Of a stretch of 64,000 nt of DNA, positions 1,086 to 59,193 are shown one piece after another; the first letter of the stretch is position 1; each line of letters opens with the position of its first letter. A model generated the notes under the pieces. The model saw nothing but the letters and a program-made list of their open reading frames with translations. It searched no databases and was not told the origin of the DNA. The position numbers were made by a program, and so were the translations under genes. The DNA comes from a virus: positions 1-64,000 of IMG/VR virus record IMGVR_UViG_3300027730_001702, one strand, 5' to 3'.

Positions 1086-1175
1086 TTACCAATGGTGAAG
1101 TGCATTTATAATAAGTACAATATTAGCTATCACACCTAAAATAACTACAAATAGTTCATATACTTTATGTGTCAT
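1086..1175 (-). CDS. Tiny membrane protein, 29 aa, overlapping uvdE
   Basis: ATG at 1175 overlaps the uvdE stop as ATGA and encodes MTHKVYELFVVILGVIANIV... ending ALHHW. It is essentially one transmembrane helix. The four-base overlap is a classic translational-coupling arrangement and is the main reason to believe it is translated. Function unknown. Confidence 0.45.
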   Translation of the reverse strand: MTHKVYELFVVILGVIANIVLIINALHHW

Positions 1176-2071
1176 AGTTTAGCAAAAGATTGTTCTTTCA
1201 TTTTTAATTCAAAGTCAACATCTATATTATCATATCCATAAGTATTTGGCAAGTTTTTTGCGTAGTCTGCGTGTTTTCGTGGATTCTTATGACCATCTAT
1301 ACTCTCAGAGTAATGGAACAATGGAGTATGATTACCCCAAGTGATTCGTGCAAGATGAAACGCTTCTTCTTCTGTTAAATTGTCTGGATGACATTTATGA
1401 TGAAGATAATCAAAGGTAATAGGGATATTGGAAACCGAATGGAAATACCTCATTAGCTTCTTAACTGACCAGCAAGTATCTTTATCATCATTTTCTATAA
1501 CCAATCTAGACCTTACATCGTCAGTTAACTTATTAAAATTAATCATAAACTTTTTGACTATATCATTTAAATTACCCTTAGAATTATGTATGTGCATATT
1601 CATAGGTGCATTATAGTTTAGCGAGCAACCAATCTGAGTCATAAACCAACCATAGAAATTTAATTCTTTGATTGTTTTAATTATTGCATTTTCATTATCA
1701 CTAGCGAGAACATTAAATTCGCTAGGATGACAAGATACTCTAACATTTTTAGATTCAATAAGATTCTTGATACTATCAAATGATACTAATATTTTATTAT
1801 AGTCTGGTAAATCTTGTAATGATATATTAGCTTTATCATAAGTAATAAGAGGAAATAGATCAGAAGAAATTCTGTAAGTATGATTATGGTCGGCACAATA
1901 CTTTATGTATTGATAAGTAGTAATCATATTGTTTAGTATTCTAGAGGATAGAGTAGAAATAGCTTCTTTTCTATCCATAGATGAGAAACGAGCATAAGTC
2001 ATAGTGTTGAACTTGATAGGGTCATCTTGTTCAGCTAAACTTGAAACGATACAACATACTCCTTTTCTCAT
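1172..2071 (-). CDS. uvsE: UV DNA damage endonuclease (UvdE/UVDE family)
   Basis: The 299-residue TIM-barrel-type protein matches the UvdE family: an early YCADHNHTYRISSDLFP block, SCHPSEF, MHIHNS, the signature RLVIENDD near residue 187, FDYLHHKCHP and a late HYSES...HADY. These supply the His, Glu and Asp residues that bind the metal cluster. UvdE nicks DNA 5' of cyclobutane dimers and 6-4 photoproducts. The start is supported by a TTGACA-N17-TATTCT promoter with the -10 box 6 bases upstream. Length is typical. Such a gene would repair sunlight damage to phage DNA. Confidence 0.92.
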   Translation of the reverse strand: MRKGVCCIVSSLAEQDDPIKFNTMTYARFSSMDRKEAISTLSSRILNNMITTYQYIKYCADHNHTYRISSDLFPLITYDKANISLQDLPDYNKILVSFDSIKNLIESKNVRVSCHPSEFNVLASDNENAIIKTIKELNFYGWFMTQIGCSLNYNAPMNMHIHNSKGNLNDIVKKFMINFNKLTDDVRSRLVIENDDKDTCWSVKKLMRYFHSVSNIPITFDYLHHKCHPDNLTEEEAFHLARITWGNHTPLFHYSESIDGHKNPRKHADYAKNLPNTYGYDNIDVDFELKMKEQSFAKL

Positions 2072-25820: not shown

Positions 25821-25827
25821 TTGATTG

Positions 25828-26823
25828 ATGGTAAATCATGTAGATATTATATTTGGATTAGCTTGGGGCGATGAGGGCAAAGGCAAAATTAGCAATGCAA
25901 TTAGCAAAAATTATGATATAGTTTGCCGTTGGAATGGTGGTCCAAATGCTGGACATACAGTATACTTAGGAGACAAAAAATATAAAACACATCTTATTCC
26001 TTGTGGAATTTTTCAAAACAAACTTAGCGTTATTGGCCCAAATTGCGTTATTAATATTGATAAATTTTACGATGAAATAGATTATCTTAAAAAAGAAGGA
26101 TTTGACACATCGTTAATTAAAGTAGGTCCAAAAGCTCATGTTATAACAGAAAAACATATTCAATATGATCTTAAATTTTTAAAACCCAAACTTGGCACAA
26201 CTGGTCAAGGTATTGCTCCATGCTATGCAGACAAAGCTTTAAGAGTTGGTAAACTTGCGAAGGATTATCTAGATAAAGAATACCTTTGGGACGGAGAACT
26301 ATATGGCAATATTCTTTGTGAAGGTGCACAGAGCTTTTGGTTGGATTTAAATTATGGAGATTATCCGTATGTTACGAGTAGCGAAACGCTTCCATATTCT
26401 GCTTGTTCTTTGGGATTTAGTCCAAAGCTTATCAGAGATATTATTGGAGTAGCAAAAATTTACGATACCAAAAGTGGAGTAGATCCATTATTTCCAGAAA
26501 CTCTTTGGGAAGATAATGAATTAAATAGTTTGATAGAGCTAGGAAAAGAGTATGGCACGACCACTAACAGAAAAAGATTAGCTAATTGGTTAAATTTTTA
26601 TAAATTGCAAAAAGCAATTAAAATATCTGGCACAACCAAGCTTATTATAAATAAATGTGATATTTTAGATCAACTCAATATTTTTAAATTAAGATTTGAC
26701 AACTTAAGGGACGGACCTAATTTCATTAAATTCAATAATTTTGATAATATGAAAGAGTATATAAAAAACCAACTTAAAGATTATTGTGATGTAATTTTTT
26801 CTGGTAATAAAGAGTATATATAA
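25828..26823 (+). CDS. purA: Adenylosuccinate synthetase family protein, copy 2
   Basis: The 331-residue protein is closely similar along its whole length to the PurA at 14577, keeping GDEGKGK, NGGPNAGHTVY and GTTGQGIAPCYADKALR. It differs in the aspartate-binding loop, TTTNRKRLANWLN in place of TTTGRKRIANWLD, so substrate or kinetic properties may have diverged. The two copies lie on opposite strands about 10 kb apart, each near a SEC-C-like gene. Whether copy 2 makes adenylosuccinate from IMP or uses another purine is open. Confidence 0.88.
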   Translation: MVNHVDIIFGLAWGDEGKGKISNAISKNYDIVCRWNGGPNAGHTVYLGDKKYKTHLIPCGIFQNKLSVIGPNCVINIDKFYDEIDYLKKEGFDTSLIKVGPKAHVITEKHIQYDLKFLKPKLGTTGQGIAPCYADKALRVGKLAKDYLDKEYLWDGELYGNILCEGAQSFWLDLNYGDYPYVTSSETLPYSACSLGFSPKLIRDIIGVAKIYDTKSGVDPLFPETLWEDNELNSLIELGKEYGTTTNRKRLANWLNFYKLQKAIKISGTTKLIINKCDILDQLNIFKLRFDNLRDGPNFIKFNNFDNMKEYIKNQLKDYCDVIFSGNKEYI

Positions 26824-28790: not shown

Positions 28791-29306
28791 GTGATAGTAT
28801 CAGAAAGAGATATAGACTTTTTTGCTAAAAAACTAGGACTATCTTTAGAAAAAACTTTTTTATTGATTCAAGATCCAGATTGTTTACCAGAAATATTAAA
28901 TAAAATATCAGAAACAAATATAAATGGAATAGTAGATATAAGCTTTCCAGTATTTGCAGAAATAACAATTATTAAATATGCAAAAGATTTAAAATATTCT
29001 TTTGAAGAAAAAGAGTATGTTTCAGAGAGTATTGGTAATAAATTTTATGATTTAATAGAGTATCCAGTAACAGATAAATCATTCTTTGAACTCAAAAAAG
29101 ATGAAGATACAGCTAGATCATTATTAGTTTTCTTAGGATTCTTTTATAAAAGTTTAAATAAAAGAAGAAGAGCTTATCCTTCAGAGAAAATCTATTACAA
29201 TATAGCTAAAGATGGATTTAAAAATTCAGACAAAATACAAGTATCAGAACATCTACAAGATTGGATTAAAGTATTAAGAGTTATACATAATGAAGTCTGG
29301 TTTTAA
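28791..29306 (+). CDS. Hypothetical protein, 171 aa
   Basis: GTG at 28791 starts a soluble, mostly helical protein (VIVSERDIDFFAKKLGLSLEK...). No catalytic motif is visible; FFYKSLNKRRRAYPSEKIYYNIA is a basic patch. The GTG is supported by the upstream TGTAATTA element; an ATG 5 bases earlier is in another frame and closes after 13 codons. Function unknown. Confidence 0.65.
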   Translation: MIVSERDIDFFAKKLGLSLEKTFLLIQDPDCLPEILNKISETNINGIVDISFPVFAEITIIKYAKDLKYSFEEKEYVSESIGNKFYDLIEYPVTDKSFFELKKDEDTARSLLVFLGFFYKSLNKRRRAYPSEKIYYNIAKDGFKNSDKIQVSEHLQDWIKVLRVIHNEVWF

Positions 29307-29344
29307 TATATCTCTCTGAATTATTTAACTTTTCTTTAATATCC

Positions 29345-29637
29345 AAAAGGGCTTTACCTCTAGATAAGATATATCTGAGGTTAAGTATTATCAATCCAAC
29401 TTTTCTTTTAACTCCAATTTTTGCTTCGATCTCAGAAGCAAACGGGCCATCGCACTTATGGATCAGAGGTAGCTTCGATCACTACATTCTGCGATGCCTT
29501 TAGCTACATTCCCTTCTTTAGCCATATTATGTACAAATGAAGGTTTTAATAGTTGTCAGCCCTTATGACATTGCTATCTCAGGGATTGATAGTTGATTTT
29601 TTGACATCAACAAACTGTCCTATTTGGGAACTATGTT
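29345..29637 (-). ncRNA. Candidate structured noncoding RNA, family unknown
   Basis: A promoter (TTGACA-N17-TATTAT) at 29643-29671 fires leftward into about 300 bases without a convincing gene. The predicted RNA has a hairpin CTATC/GATAG with CCCT in its loop, then TGTCA/TGACA with AAGGGC in its loop (the loops can kiss, or the second can pair with AGCCCTT near 29347-29353), an interleaved pseudoknot GTAGCT/AGCTAC with CATCGCA/TGCGATG, a perfect 8-bp hairpin TTTGCTTC/GAAGCAAA, and a terminal hairpin ACCTCAGATA/TATCTAGAGGT. Two short frames exist (MAKEGNVAKGIAECSDRSYL and a downstream frame with LRYILSRGKALLDIKEKL), so a decayed gene remains possible. Confidence 0.5.
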
Positions 29638-29642
29638 GACTT

Positions 29643-29671
29643 ATAATATATTAAACTTGATCTTTTGTCAA
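29643..29671 (-). promoter_or_regulatory. Promoter of the candidate ncRNA
   Basis: Minus strand TTGACA (29666-29671), exactly 17 bases, TATTAT (29643-29648). Predicted transcript start about 29636-29637. It interlocks with the plus-strand promoter at 29657-29685, so the two cannot be occupied at once. Confidence 0.7.
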
Positions 29672-29685
29672 ATTTTATTTATTAT
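29657..29685 (+). promoter_or_regulatory. Promoter of the 69-residue ORF
   Basis: TTGATC (29657-29662), 17 bases, TATTAT (29680-29685), 7 bases to the ATG at 29693. It overlaps the leftward ncRNA promoter. Confidence 0.65.
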
Positions 29686-29692
29686 AATACAA

Positions 29693-29902
29693 ATGGAAGT
29701 GATAAAAAATAAAGCTAGATGGACAGTTTACTCATATAAATGCATAAAACATTACAATGTATCTAACGAAAATATCTATGACGAGCCAAATGAATATCCA
29801 TGCCTAGCCGTACCTCAGTTAGTTTCAGATATTAACGGCGCAAGGATTAAATTTAATTTTGTTTATAAAAAAGATTGTGAAAAACTATTAAAAGCTTTAT
29901 AA
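29693..29902 (+). CDS. Hypothetical protein, 69 aa
   Basis: The frame is open from 29624, but the promoter ending 7 bases before 29693 favours that ATG (MEVIKNKARWTVYSYKCIKH...). The protein is small, soluble and basic/aromatic with two Cys. The tmRNA promoter lies across its last codons. Function unknown. Confidence 0.6.
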   Translation: MEVIKNKARWTVYSYKCIKHYNVSNENIYDEPNEYPCLAVPQLVSDINGARIKFNFVYKKDCEKLLKAL

Positions 29903-29903
29903 T
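29875..29903 (+). promoter_or_regulatory. Promoter of the tmRNA precursor
   Basis: TTGTGA (29875-29880), 17 bases, TATAAT (29898-29903), giving a precursor starting near 29910; the mature 5' end at 29932 would be made by RNase P. Confidence 0.65.
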
Positions 29904-29931
29904 GTGTAAGCTAGGTTAGTTCTTTCTTATT

Positions 29932-30317
29932 GGGCCCGTACTGGTTTCGATTTTAGAGATACGAATTAAAATGCAAGTGGAGGTTGAATCGTGGACTCCT
30001 TAAAAAGTTTCACTTATATTAACTGCCAAAAAAGCAAAATATAAAGGTCACATTTCAGCAAGAGTTTCTCTTGTTGAGCTGACCGCTTCTGTAGCTTAAG
30101 TTACAGCGTGATACCCTTGAAGCATCTATTGGGATATTGCGTAATTAGATGTTTGATTATAAAGAGTTTTTTTATTCTTTTTATACTCAATATTAAAAAT
30201 AAAATCGCTAAGTATGTTTGTTGTTTATCTATATAAAGCTAAAAACAAAAACGACTAAACTTGTAGTATTTTAATTTAAATTTTTAAAAGACAGAGGTTC
30301 AATTCCTCTCGGGTCCA
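29932..30317 (+). ncRNA. ssrA: Transfer-messenger RNA (tmRNA)
   Basis: The ends form the tRNA-like half: GGGCCCG (29932-29938) pairs with CGGGTCC (30310-30316), the T arm AGAGG-TTCAATT-CCTCT precedes it, and TGGTTTCGA near the 5' end is the conserved tmRNA segment. A resume codon GCC follows TTAACT, giving a 24-residue tag that starts AKKAKYKG and ends ELTASVA, with its TAA in the loop of CTGTA/TACAG just as the E. coli tag stop sits in a hairpin loop. tmRNA rescues stalled ribosomes and tags nascent chains for proteolysis. The final SVA replaces the usual LAA. CCA is not encoded. Confidence 0.93.
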
Positions 30318-30382
30318 AGTTAAATATCTAATAAATTATTTAAGAATTAGATTTTAGCATTAAAAAATGTGTATATAATATT

Positions 30383-32560
30383 ATGGCCGAAGATAAAAAA
30401 ATTGTAGTATTCGGAGACGGTACAAAAGATACCAATCTTGAGAGCGCAGGGTCCTGTGCAAATTGTTCTACTTATAATGGAGCAAGTAGCCCATTTGTAT
30501 TTACTCCTATTAATCTTACTTATAAGATTAAAGCTAAATACATTTATGCTAAAGACGGAAGCGAAGATACTCTAGCTTTGACCCCTAACGGAGATACCTA
30601 CGTTGAGTATAACCTTATGTCAATAGAAAGTATTGATAAAGGAGCCGAAGGAAAAAATGCAGCAGAAGAATTAAAGAATTATTATAACGACGAGCTTGAT
30701 CAAGGCGGTGGAGAAGAAGAAATGACAATAGGTTTCGCAGAAAAAGTAATAGCAGAGTTCCATACAGAACTATCAAAGTCAAAATGGAAAACTTTTTTTG
30801 AAAAGGTAATTAAAAATAGCATAAAGACAGAAAATCTTTTAAAATCAACATTTCAAGATTACATTAATCATGATTTTATTACTGACCATAATAGAAAAGC
30901 AATATCTTATAGCGGTTGGAGCGGAAACTCAGTTGAAAAAACTTACTCAGTTAAAGTAAATGTAGGCGTGAAACCAAAATTTTTAAAAAGTTGCACTTTA
31001 GAAGACGACAAAAGCAGACTCACGCTAACTAAACCAGAAAAAAAATTCTGTAAAGCATTTTTGGCTGTCATAGGAGAAGAGAAAGAATTATCAGATGATA
31101 ATTTTTTATTTGAAGTCACAGATCAATACTCTGAGCCAACTCCAAGAGGATTTTTCGCAACTACTGCTCTTGGGAAAATAGAAGATCTCGATACCAATGA
31201 AAAGTTAATCACTCCTGCTACCATGCTACAAACTACACGAGATTATGAAAAGTTATTAAAAGATGGCGCTTTTGCTGGTTTTCAAGGAGCGGCAAGTAAC
31301 GGTGGAGGTCCATTTAAATTTAACAGCGAAGAAAAAGCTTGGAGTATAGGTGCGCAATTCGGAAGTACTCGAGTAGAAGTCGAAGCAGATATGAGTGGAG
31401 GTCAAGCAAAACAAGATATCTACGTTAGATATAAAATGGCTATTGGTCCTGACGGTAAAATAGGCCAAACCACAGTAACTATAGGAGGAAGAAAAGCATC
31501 TCTTGGATACGCTCTTCAACAGATTGCTAAAAATATGCAAGGTTGGCTGCATCAGGTCTGGATGTCTTGGCACAAACCCAATGATTCAAGCAGCTTAGCT
31601 GCGGTAGAGCTAGCTGAGGATAACGCTGACAAAGTTAAGGACAAAACTGAAAAATTAAAAGATGACGCGGAGGTAGCTGCAGACAAGATAGCCGATGCTG
31701 CTGGAGCTGTTGCAGGCGCTACCCCTGAGACCGCTGCTGCTGTGGCCCAACAACTGGCATCTGTTAAGGCCGCGGCTGAGCAGGCAAATACTGCAGCAAT
31801 TGCTGCACAGACCGAACAAACCATTCTATCAACAGGCTCAGGATCTAATCCCGTAACTTCTAACACAAACGAGGGGAACATAAGCAAGGCAGTAACTCAG
31901 ATTGGTCAAACCATACAACACTTAGATACCGTCATAGAAAATCTTGGTACTGTCCCAGCTAACCTTCCAGCCGCTCAATCATCAATGACTGCGGCAGTAA
32001 ATAAATCAGCAGAAGCTAGTAACACAGCAACTGAAGCTGACACCAAAGCCACAGAAGTAAAAACAGACGCAACTGGCCTCGTAAACGTCGTTAAAAATCT
32101 CACAGAGATAGCAGGATCAGGAAGAGATGTTGATCCAGACACAAGAAATATGCTAAATACATTTGGGGCGAAAGTCGAAGAGGCTAAAAATGTTGTAAAA
32201 GATATAGTAGCTGATAATAATAAAACAGTACCACCAGATTTAATAGATAAGATTGGTGAGGTAATAACCCCTGTTCCAGAGGGTAATATACCAAAAACTT
32301 CCACACCGAAATCAGATCTTGAAGCCGACACTAGCATAGATTCAGGTGATACAACAAAAGGAAATACTTCTTTTATATTTAAAGGTTCGGCCACGGAAAC
32401 ACCAAATCCAATATCAACAATTGGAGCTAACGAAGGAGAGGGTTTTAAATCTGATAATAACGAAGGGTGGCAGAATCCAGAATCCGTAGGATTTCTGCAA
32501 TTTAAAATAACACCCGCAAATGAGGATAACGAACCACAAAATGGAAAGTTTTCTCAATAA
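30383..32560 (+). CDS. Large Ala-rich virion-like protein, 725 aa
   Basis: The N-terminal ~400 residues form a mixed globular region (SCANCSTYNGASSPFVFTP, later GAQFGSTRVEVEADMSGG); residues ~410-600 are Ala/Asp/Lys-rich heptads (AEVAADKIADAAGAVAG, AAAVAQQLASVKAAAEQA) that should form coiled coils, and the last 120 are Pro/Ser/Thr/Asn-rich linkers. Base composition and codon use are more GC-rich than the neighbours, especially in the coiled-coil part. This fits a virion structural or ejected protein. TATAAT ends 3 bases before the ATG. No family recognised. Confidence 0.65.
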   Translation: MAEDKKIVVFGDGTKDTNLESAGSCANCSTYNGASSPFVFTPINLTYKIKAKYIYAKDGSEDTLALTPNGDTYVEYNLMSIESIDKGAEGKNAAEELKNYYNDELDQGGGEEEMTIGFAEKVIAEFHTELSKSKWKTFFEKVIKNSIKTENLLKSTFQDYINHDFITDHNRKAISYSGWSGNSVEKTYSVKVNVGVKPKFLKSCTLEDDKSRLTLTKPEKKFCKAFLAVIGEEKELSDDNFLFEVTDQYSEPTPRGFFATTALGKIEDLDTNEKLITPATMLQTTRDYEKLLKDGAFAGFQGAASNGGGPFKFNSEEKAWSIGAQFGSTRVEVEADMSGGQAKQDIYVRYKMAIGPDGKIGQTTVTIGGRKASLGYALQQIAKNMQGWLHQVWMSWHKPNDSSSLAAVELAEDNADKVKDKTEKLKDDAEVAADKIADAAGAVAGATPETAAAVAQQLASVKAAAEQANTAAIAAQTEQTILSTGSGSNPVTSNTNEGNISKAVTQIGQTIQHLDTVIENLGTVPANLPAAQSSMTAAVNKSAEASNTATEADTKATEVKTDATGLVNVVKNLTEIAGSGRDVDPDTRNMLNTFGAKVEEAKNVVKDIVADNNKTVPPDLIDKIGEVITPVPEGNIPKTSTPKSDLEADTSIDSGDTTKGNTSFIFKGSATETPNPISTIGANEGEGFKSDNNEGWQNPESVGFLQFKITPANEDNEPQNGKFSQ

Positions 32561-56615: not shown

Positions 56616-59193
56616 CAACTACTCCAACGCAAAAGATTTTTCTGATCAATTCGAAAATATAGAGCTAGATATTCACGGGGTTAGATTGCCTGAGTTTGAG
56701 ATTGATCTAGCCTCTAAAAGACATTTAGGTGTTAGTGAGGATGCATCAAACTATGACTTTTTAAGAGCCTTAACATTAAACGGATTTAAAACTTTAAATA
56801 TTAATAAAGCTGATAAGGATTACAAGAGGTATATCGATAGGGCAAAATATGAATTAGACACGTTAAAAGAGTTAGGGTTTATTGATTATATATTATTAGT
56901 ATGGGATGTTATACATTTTTGTAAAACTAGTGATATTCCAGTGGGTTTAGGCAGAGGTTCGGCCGCAGGGTCTTTGATATTATATTTAGTGGGCGTTACC
57001 AGAATTGATCCAGTTAAATATGATCTCTATTTTGAAAGATTTATATCCAAGATTCGCGCTAAAAAACAGATTGTTGATGGGGTAACGTATTTAGATGGTA
57101 GTTTGATGTGCGATGTAGATTTAGATATTTGTTATTATAATCGTCAAAAAGTCCTTCAATATTTAGAGAATAAATTCAAAGACAAAACTAGCAAGATATT
57201 AACCTTTAATAGTTTAAGTGGAAAATTGCTTATTAAAGAATGTGGTAAAATCATTGCTGAAAAACCAGAGCAAGAAATGACAATGATATCTTCTTTAATT
57301 CCTAAAACCTATGGCCAAGTTAAGGACATCTCAGAAGCCTATAAAGAAGTTGAGCAATTTAAAGAGTGGTGCGATCAAAATAAAGAAGCATATCAAGTCG
57401 CCCTTAAATTAAGAGACTTAATCAAGAATAAAGGAGTTCATCCTTCTGGCGTATTACTTTCTTATTACGATTTAGAGACTATCTGTCCAACAGAATTCTC
57501 TTCAGACAAAGAAATCGTATCTAGCTTCGATATGAACTGGGCAAGCGTTTTTAACATAAAGCTTGATATTCTTGGCTTAAGAAGCGTTTCTGTAGTAGAT
57601 AATGTTTGCAAGAGCATTAATCTAAAAATAGAAGATATAGATTTAAATCATGAATCTATTTATAGAAATTTACAGGATTTAAAATCGCCACATGGTCTAT
57701 TCCAAATCGAAGCAGAAACTAATTTTAGGGTATGTCAAAAAGTTAAACCAAAAAATCTAGAAGAACTTAGCGGTGTTCTAGCTTTAGCTAGACCTGGAGC
57801 TCTTCAATTCGTAGATAAATATGCAGCTCATACAAATTTTCAACAATCAGAAAGTATTCATCCGTTTTTTGATGAAATTTTAAAACAAACTGGCGGGGTT
57901 GCTTTATATCAAGAGCAATTAATGAAAATGGCTAATAAGATTGGTTTTAATTTAGATGAAGCAGAAATCTTAAGAAGAATCGTGGGTAAAAAGAAAACGG
58001 AAGAAATCAAAGCTTGGAAACAAAAGATCGAACAAAAATGTAAACAAAATAAAATTCCAAAAGAAGTTAGCGAAATTTTATGGAAGCTTCTTGAAGATTC
58101 TGTTAATTACTCCTTTAATAAATCGCATTCAATAGCTTATGCTGGACTTGCAGCAATTACAATTTATCTTAAGTTTAATTATCCTCAACAATTCTTTTTA
58201 TCATTATTAAAGATGAGCAGGAATGAACCAGATCCAATTGGCGAAATATCTAAAATTCAAAAAGAAATGCATAACTTCGGGATCAAACTCCTTCCTCCTC
58301 ATATTATTAAATCAGAAATGGATTTCTCAATTGAGGATAAAGACATTAGATTCGGTCTATTATCAATCAAAGGTATTAGCGATAAATCAATAGAAAAATT
58401 GAATAGCTTTAGAAATAAATATTCTAATAAATTTGAAATATTTGAAGCTGCAGAAGAAGCTGGATTAAATATTGGAGCATTATCTGCATTAATTCAAGCT
58501 GGCGCACTTAGTGGGTTCAATCAATCAAGAAGTAAAATAGTACTAGAAGTTCAATTATGGAACATGCTAACCTCTAAAGAGAAGAAATACGCTATATCAT
58601 TTGCAGATAAATTCGATTATGATCTAATTAAAATTATTAAACATCTTAATAAATTCACTGACGAAAAAAATAAAGTGGTTATTAAAGATAATAGATTGAG
58701 TACCATTAAAGAAAAGTATACTCCATATTTGAGCATATATGAGCAAAATAATAAAAGTGAAAGCTTTGCTAATTGGTATTACGAAAAGAAGCTTCTGGGA
58801 TATACTTATAATAAAAATCTAAAAGATATCTTTGCTGAGAAAAGAGAAAATCTTAAATATATATCTGATATATTAGATGAACCAGTAAACTCTAAAGTAG
58901 CTTTAGTTGGTCAAATAGAAGAGGTATTTTCTGGAATATCCAAAAATGCAAAAAAGACAAGATATGTTAGATTAAAGATATCAGATGAAACAAGCACCAT
59001 TAGCGCATTAATATTTAACGATAATATCGACACAAATAAACTATTAAATAATAAAAATTTTGAAGAAGGGAATATTGTTATAGTAAAAGGTTCTAAAAGA
59101 GATGATTGTATATTTGGTGATTTAATAGCTATTCAAGATCATGAGATATACATGAAATTAAATGATTTAAAAAAGATAGATAAAAATAATTGA
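56599..59193 (+). CDS. dnaE: Family-C DNA polymerase catalytic subunit (DnaE-like)
   Basis: ATG 56599 is chosen for the AGGAAG before it; the frame is open from 56578. The 864-residue protein has PVGLGRGSAAGSLILYLVGV, LMCDVDLDICYYNRQKVLQYL (catalytic Asp-x-Asp), GVHPSGVLLSYYD, KLDILGLRSVS, LALARPGALQFV and a C-terminal OB fold (VALVGQIEEVFSGISKNAKK). It lacks the PHP domain, supplied by the gene at 55002. The order PHP, exonuclease, polymerase is that of PolC, but in separate genes. Confidence 0.93.
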   Translation: MKMKTDNYSNAKDFSDQFENIELDIHGVRLPEFEIDLASKRHLGVSEDASNYDFLRALTLNGFKTLNINKADKDYKRYIDRAKYELDTLKELGFIDYILLVWDVIHFCKTSDIPVGLGRGSAAGSLILYLVGVTRIDPVKYDLYFERFISKIRAKKQIVDGVTYLDGSLMCDVDLDICYYNRQKVLQYLENKFKDKTSKILTFNSLSGKLLIKECGKIIAEKPEQEMTMISSLIPKTYGQVKDISEAYKEVEQFKEWCDQNKEAYQVALKLRDLIKNKGVHPSGVLLSYYDLETICPTEFSSDKEIVSSFDMNWASVFNIKLDILGLRSVSVVDNVCKSINLKIEDIDLNHESIYRNLQDLKSPHGLFQIEAETNFRVCQKVKPKNLEELSGVLALARPGALQFVDKYAAHTNFQQSESIHPFFDEILKQTGGVALYQEQLMKMANKIGFNLDEAEILRRIVGKKKTEEIKAWKQKIEQKCKQNKIPKEVSEILWKLLEDSVNYSFNKSHSIAYAGLAAITIYLKFNYPQQFFLSLLKMSRNEPDPIGEISKIQKEMHNFGIKLLPPHIIKSEMDFSIEDKDIRFGLLSIKGISDKSIEKLNSFRNKYSNKFEIFEAAEEAGLNIGALSALIQAGALSGFNQSRSKIVLEVQLWNMLTSKEKKYAISFADKFDYDLIKIIKHLNKFTDEKNKVVIKDNRLSTIKEKYTPYLSIYEQNNKSESFANWYYEKKLLGYTYNKNLKDIFAEKRENLKYISDILDEPVNSKVALVGQIEEVFSGISKNAKKTRYVRLKISDETSTISALIFNDNIDTNKLLNNKNFEEGNIVIVKGSKRDDCIFGDLIAIQDHEIYMKLNDLKKIDKNN

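Follow-up and report, generated by a model that had tools for sequence, protein, structure and literature searches.

The stretch of DNA analyzed here (the window) comprises positions 1 to 64,000 of IMG/VR virus record IMGVR_UViG_3300027730_001702, a viral contig of 66,268 bases in full. On its minus strand, between a convergent gene and a small divergent open reading frame (ORF) next to a transfer-messenger RNA (tmRNA), lies an element of about 310 nucleotides (nt) that, judging from its relatives, is almost certainly a structured non-coding RNA. A sequence-only reading of the window had proposed a new phage non-coding RNA at 29345-29685; this interval takes in the promoter and most of the RNA, which runs from about 29636 to 29325, but it leaves out the second copy of a repeat described below (Table 1). 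The proposal itself stood, with covarying helices in homologues and no match to an Rfam model in any of the four clades that make up the family.

The RNA family, its promoter and its ends

A first set of about 100 related phage loci was recruited through two genes a few kilobases (kb) away, which encode a PurZ-like adenylosuccinate synthetase and a protein of 328 residues; about 20 of these loci, in some cases stretches of a single contig that overlap, carry a sequence at least 85% identical to the element. The family was extended by patterns taken from invariant stretches and then by two covariance models, R1 and R2, and now comprises about 80 viral contigs, mostly metagenomic, with 67 distinct full-length RNAs of roughly 280-320 nt. 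Identity to the window sequence is about 59-61% for clade 2 and lower for clade 4. R1, which was built with clades 1-3 and without clade 4, gave 340-365 bits for clade 1, 248-270 for clade 2, 220-238 for clade 3 and 55-74 for clade 4; by this score clades 3 and 4 are more remote than clade 2. As far as could be seen, the carriers encode a ribonucleotide reductase and a T4-type replication set, and they appear to be T4-like (T4-superfamily) phages of freshwater, a habitat read from sample identifiers and relatives.

The closest named relatives by NrdA, the Pelagibacter phages HTVC008M and Mosig, gave no significant match to the RNA, and neither did four records of 107-211 kb with a more remote PurZ; blastn with members of all four clades found no real match among the INPHARED phages. 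A pattern scan of a genome collection returned eight matches, each unrelated on inspection. Searching Rfam 15 with cmscan at gathering score, we recovered only the tmRNA and two transfer RNAs (tRNAs) from the window; at E<=10 the region 29280-29930 yielded nothing relevant, and representatives of clades 2-4 yielded nothing at E<=1. The sequence-only reading had likewise failed to match RNase P, 6S RNA, riboswitches or introns, and this more permissive search agreed with it. The covariance models for ROOL, GOLLD, OLE and 6S RNA found no match at these thresholds, the RNA did not fit a tmRNA, and a search of an open-access library turned up no description of it.

The exactly spaced TTGACA/TATTAT promoter of the sequence-only reading is present, with a score of 11/12. 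Because it is one of nine sites in the 64 kb of the window that score at least 11/12, the promoter alone is weak evidence. TTGACA, a 17-nt spacer and a -10-like hexamer nevertheless precede the RNA in 57 of the 58 members scored, the remaining one being a clade 4 member scored with another choice of -10. In the alignment, conservation starts about 6-10 nt past the -10 box and breaks off abruptly once the second repeat copy is passed. A search for an intrinsic terminator at the 3′ end was negative. Nor did we find a conserved open frame: the longest closed frames span 18-68 amino acids (aa) in the sense and 30-74 aa in the antisense direction, with lengths that vary within and between clades. 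Substitutions in the RNA instead preserve base pairs. Together, the promoter and the covariation make transcription from this strand very likely.

Helices, pseudoknots and covariation

The structure model, drawn on an alignment of 30 sequences from three clades, comprises 70 pairs and includes two pseudoknots. In the alignment 94.5% of cells pair, compared with 32-50% when the 3′ partners are slid by 1-3 columns. The check proposed in the sequence-only reading was a search for covarying helices, and 39 of the 70 pairs vary on both sides with pairing preserved, compared with 14 at best in the slid controls. None of 500 shuffles reached the observed percentage paired, either of the two counts of both-sided changes or the covariation score, and 43 of 500 reached one measure, that of further pair types. 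Since the shuffles take no account of relatedness and part of the structure was derived from these very sequences, it is the slid controls and the changes between clades that carry weight. Clade 4, which was not used in drawing the structure, fits it. For X and PK2, stems within a sequence were stronger than stems mixed between clades (the clade 2 rows for PK1 and H6 were excluded from this comparison, PK1 and H6 there being taken from a separate stem reading). Misalignment by MAFFT of parts of X, H5 and H9 in clade 3 lowered the covariation counts. Thermodynamic stability is modest when taken alone (z of -1.0 to -4.3), and the case for the predicted RNA rests on covariation rather than stability.

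Table 1. Positions in the window of the RNA, its parts and its neighbors.
Feature	Position	Strand	Remarks
Sigma-70-type promoter, TTGACA-17-TATTAT	29643..29671	-	score 11/12; recurs in all four clades
Conserved RNA, about 310 nt	29325..29636	-	ends inferred from start and stop of conservation
Helix H1 (GUUC/GGAC)	29617..29631	-	5′ hairpin; covaries
Helix H2 (GUUGAU/AUCAAC)	29592..29611	-	local hairpin; alignments, read by eye
Helix X, 5′ strand UAUCAAUCC	29583..29591	-	long-range; covaries
Helix X, 3′ strand GGAUUGAUA	29389..29397	-	near 3′ end; covaries
Helix H4 (GAUAG..CUAUU + UGUC..GACA)	29548..29578	-	loop holds PK2 5′ strand
PK2, 5′ strand AAGGGCU	29558..29564	-	covaries
PK2, 3′ strand AGCCCUU	29347..29353	-	covaries
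Helix H5 (CCUUC/GAAGG)	29512..29543	-	covaries within clade 1
PK1, 5′ strand GUAGCU	29502..29507	-	
PK1, 3′ strand AGCUAC	29469..29474	-	in H7 loop
Helix H6 (GGCAUCGCA/UGCGAUGGCC)	29445..29498	-	encloses H7
Helix H7 (GAUCG/UGAUC)	29461-29480	-	inside H6
Helix H8 (UUUGCUUC/GAAGCAAA)	29420..29442	-	both-sided changes in 7 of 8 pairs
Helix H9 (CCUCAGAU/AUCUAGAGG)	29357..29380	-	3′ hairpin
Repeat copy 1 (UAAAAGAAAAGU plus one base before)	29399..29411	-	just before X 3′ strand
Repeat copy 2 (UAAAGAAAAGU plus two bases before)	29328..29340	-	at conserved 3′ end
tmRNA, one-piece, unusual tag AKKAKYKGHISARVSLVELTASVA	29932-30318		only tmRNA in window
Small divergent ORF	29624-29902	+	92 aa from TTG, 69 aa from ATG
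171-aa protein	28791-29306	+	family unknown
PurZ-like adenylosuccinate synthetase	25825-26823	+	phrog_1211
725-aa ORF	30383-32560	+	no family match
Promoter TTGACA-17-TATAAT	19574	+	precedes ORF of 98 aa
Promoter TTGACA-17-TATAAT	43209	+	precedes ORF of 128 aa
Promoter TTGACA-17-TATAAT	4118	-	precedes ORF of 98 aa
UV-endonuclease UvdE homologue	1172-2071	-	

The clearest covariation is that of PK2, which reads AAGGGCT/AGCCCTT, GAAGGCT/AGCCTTC, ATAGGCT/AGCCTAT, CAGGCT/AGCCTG or GAAGACT/AGTCTTC, and CGGAGCTT/AAGCTCCG in clade 4. PK1 varies among GTAGCT/AGCTAC, GTAGGT/ACCTAC, GTGGCT/AGCCAC and GTGGAT/ATCCAC, with one mismatch in three clade 2 and two clade 3 members. Helix X changes its sequence almost completely between clades while pairing is kept; it has 9 base pairs (bp) in the majority of clade 1 members, mostly 11-12 bp in clade 4 and as many as 19 bp in clade 3, and is interrupted in clade 2. 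H1 occurs as GUUC/GGAC, GUCC/GGAC, GCUU/AAGC, GCCU/AGGC and CCGC/GCGG, and the H4 pair at columns 77/94 is C-G in 16 sequences and U-A in 14. The loop of H8 is of GNRA type in clade 4 and most of clade 3. In clades 1 and 2, H2 competes with a possible helix closing the 5′ and 3′ ends (UUGAUGUC/GAUAUUAA in clade 1), and the two might act as a switch.

Most of the pairings in the sequence-only reading recurred with covariation, namely the interleaved pseudoknot of GTAGCT/AGCTAC with GGCATCGCA/TGCGATGGCC, the 8-bp hairpin TTTGCTTC/GAAGCAAA, the long 3′ hairpin and the pairing of AAGGGCT with AGCCCTT. Its kissing hairpins, with loops CCCT and AGGG, gave way to other partners: UAUCAAUCC pairs with GGAUUGAUA, and AAGGGCU with AGCCCUU.

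The matched repeat and a proposed function of the RNA

Absent from the sequence-only reading was an 11-nt repeat present in two copies, whose prevailing sequence is CAAAGAAAAGU in clades 1-3 and CAUUGGGAAGU in clade 4 (motif form Y-A-(A)-WW-G-RR-AA plus two variable bases). Copy 1 carries one extra base relative to copy 2, a difference that persists in every clade. Each of the 67 distinct RNAs has the same bases in both copies over the 11 positions that these share. On a tree built from the remainder of the RNA, 11 substitutions fall on eight branches, all of them in both copies and none in one alone; they comprise C/U at position 1 (three times), AAGU to AAAU, AAGA and AAUU, UU to CU, and a four-base change that separates clades 1-3 from clade 4. 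Two sites kept identical while both change suggest one partner in trans that is met by both. Among five phages scanned, the full-length motif is almost confined to the RNA, with one further site at window position 58707 on the plus strand.

No internal segment was seen to change along with the repeat. In clade 4, pairing of the H1 loop CCCAAUU with AAUUGGG was considered and rejected when it failed to track the changes in L254 or in the L247 group. Pairing with the ribosomal RNA of E. coli, which may not be the host, gave nothing convincing. A likeness of the clade 4 repeat GCUCAUUGGGAAG to a tRNA D-arm was set aside, as it has no stem and is not shared by clades 1-3.

We tentatively favor a free-standing, trans-acting structured RNA of T4-superfamily phages that works through its two sites. 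This reading draws on the promoter, the ends, the covarying helices with two pseudoknots, the lack of a conserved frame and the survival of the RNA through rearrangement of its neighborhood. Because the promoter is of host type, the host sigma-70 polymerase would transcribe the RNA early in infection. The fold would present the two repeat copies as equivalent sites at which one partner molecule docks. This partner could be a protein or an RNA, of either host or phage, and the RNA would scaffold or titrate it during takeover of the cell. That the repeats bind a partner is what we infer from their matched changes. Possibly this is a new class of phage RNA, a scaffold or decoy for a host or phage factor, in which one partner is held at two identical sites that track its changes across phage lineages.

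Four points weigh against this reading. It rests on sequence comparison. Gene conversion between the repeats could in principle produce concerted change, and the repeats could instead make an intramolecular tertiary contact or an intermolecular RNA-RNA contact. Finally, the patterns used to find members fixed part of copy 2, which limits the one-copy variation that can be seen; these patterns left positions 1, 10 and 11 free, and also position 3 in clade 4. The last round of collecting made no use of copy 1, and the copies agreed in every RNA collected.

CsrB and RsmZ are structured RNAs in which a binding motif recurs several times, and 6S RNA occupies a host factor. The RNA described here resembles them in its proposed mode only, as a repeated binding motif or as an RNA occupying a factor; unlike them, it has no Rfam match, two copies rather than many and no 6S-like open rod. 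Species 1 and 2 of phage T4, which also come from a T4-superfamily phage, are stable RNAs of unknown function from a tRNA-bearing region and are much shorter.

The strongest rival, though an unlikely one, is an oligomer made of RNA only, in which the repeats contact neighboring copies and form a ring or cage. ROOL and GOLLD, two large ornate RNAs of phages and prophages, assemble into nanocages and are often encoded close to tRNA islands (PMC12286853). Like them, the present RNA is encoded by phages, non-coding and orphan in function, with an elaborate pseudoknotted fold supported by covariation; unlike them, it is shorter, does not keep constantly close to tRNA or tmRNA, and has two repeats that evolve in concert. 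An oligomer would suit a compact, phage-encoded RNA with two pseudoknots and no recognized RNA-binding protein alongside, and equivalent contacts would account for two matching repeats. However, no self-complementary or reciprocal partner segment was found for the repeat, and the RNA has about half the length of the ROOL whose structure is solved (659 nt), while GOLLD RNAs, many of them above 800 nt, are longer still by far.

The main trivial explanation, which we hold to be improbable, accepts the RNA as real and regards the repeats as a functionless by-product of gene conversion or template switching. The repeats are indeed short, direct, on the same strand and about 70 nt apart, but all 67 RNAs preserve their one-nt difference in length and their flanks differ, so that conversion would need to stop within about 12 nt each time.

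A catalytic RNA, such as a distant RNase P-like or intron-derived ribozyme, would fit the interleaved long-range helices, among which the interlocked order of X and PK2 is reminiscent of P2/P4 of RNase P, and also the many invariant unpaired purines and the sequence GAGGGAAAGUC in clade 3. Yet no RNase P, intron or ribozyme family matched in the window region at E<=10 or in clades 2-4 at E<=1, and strings resembling the conserved regions of RNase P (CR-I to CR-V) stand only in reverse order, leaving this option highly unlikely.

To a cis-acting leader or riboswitch of ribonucleotide reductase we give a very low probability. The usual neighbors of the RNA are the ribonucleotide-reductase genes (the nrdA-nrdB block), which are frequently adjacent in all clades, and in clades 2 and 4 nrdA starts about 100-150 nt downstream of the RNA and shares its strand; locus L223 of clade 4 has an extra gene in between. 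In most of clades 1 and 3, by contrast, the block follows the RNA in the opposite orientation, the RNA being convergent with its 3′ end. Because the next gene is convergent in all but a few loci of clades 1 and 3, the RNA leads nothing there, and it is conserved regardless. The simplest reading of the difference in orientation relative to the RNA (L046, L129, L145 and L063 versus L172 and L181; clades 2 and 4 versus most of clades 1 and 3) is a single inversion. The RNA has outlived this putative inversion and thus seems not to need a gene in cis.

A replication-primer transcript, like ColE1 RNA II or the R-loop origins of T4, whose folding controls hybridization to DNA, is also very doubtful. 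The strong promoter and, in clades 1-3, a 3′-end tract of purines rich in A would suit it, but the window has no GC-skew switch here (a switch near 18 kb follows gene direction), the tract in clade 4 is AUUGGGAAG, which is not A-rich, and the two matched copies are left unexplained. The guide scaffold of an RNA-guided nuclease, or a retron RNA, is the least credible. A conserved 3′ end that directly abuts variable sequence would suit it, but PF07282 (TnpB/Cas12f zinc-ribbon) and PF00078 (reverse transcriptase) are absent from 20 records of the group, some incomplete, in a check that did not cover IscB-type HNH nucleases.

The RNA family is new and strongly supported, lies outside every Rfam model and is spread over T4-like phages, many of them metagenomic; taken more loosely, it belongs with ROOL, GOLLD and other orphan RNAs encoded by phages. 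Its matched repeats make the function of an orphan RNA testable, and a partner found through them would show a large phage using RNA, not protein, to act in its host.

Other features of the neighborhood

The link to tmRNA drawn in the sequence-only reading held in part. The two are close neighbors in the window, and the tmRNA lies about 300-1000 nt upstream of the RNA in many clade 1 and 3 loci; in others it is several kb away, and none was found near the RNA in the clade 4 loci scanned. The marine T4-like phage Melnitz carries a glutamine riboswitch and a two-piece tmRNA, the latter behind an early promoter (PMC9004378). It too is an aquatic T4-like phage with a structured RNA beside its tmRNA, but its RNAs belong to known families, neither of which the present RNA matches. 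Among the tmRNAs noted in the window and in loci L172, L177, L188 and L190, those of clade 3 phages have a different tag, ending in LIAA.

About two dozen loci of clade 1 and the majority of those of clade 3 keep the small divergent ORF, which matched no PHROG or Pfam family. Its promoter would overlap that of the RNA, and the two might exclude each other as the sequence-only reading had it, a matter that concerns only the phages with this ORF. On the other side, the gene for the 171-aa protein is kept in many loci and ends about 20 nt from the 3′ end of the RNA, with which it is convergent. A PurZ-like synthetase is encoded nearby, and these phages might carry 2-aminoadenine in their DNA. The 725-aa ORF, which has an identical copy in one other viral contig, was perhaps acquired recently, because the G+C content of 30001-32000 (0.37) is above that of the surroundings. 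Elsewhere the window encodes a homologue of the UV-endonuclease UvdE, and three perfect promoters directly precede small ORFs that are candidate early genes (Table 1).
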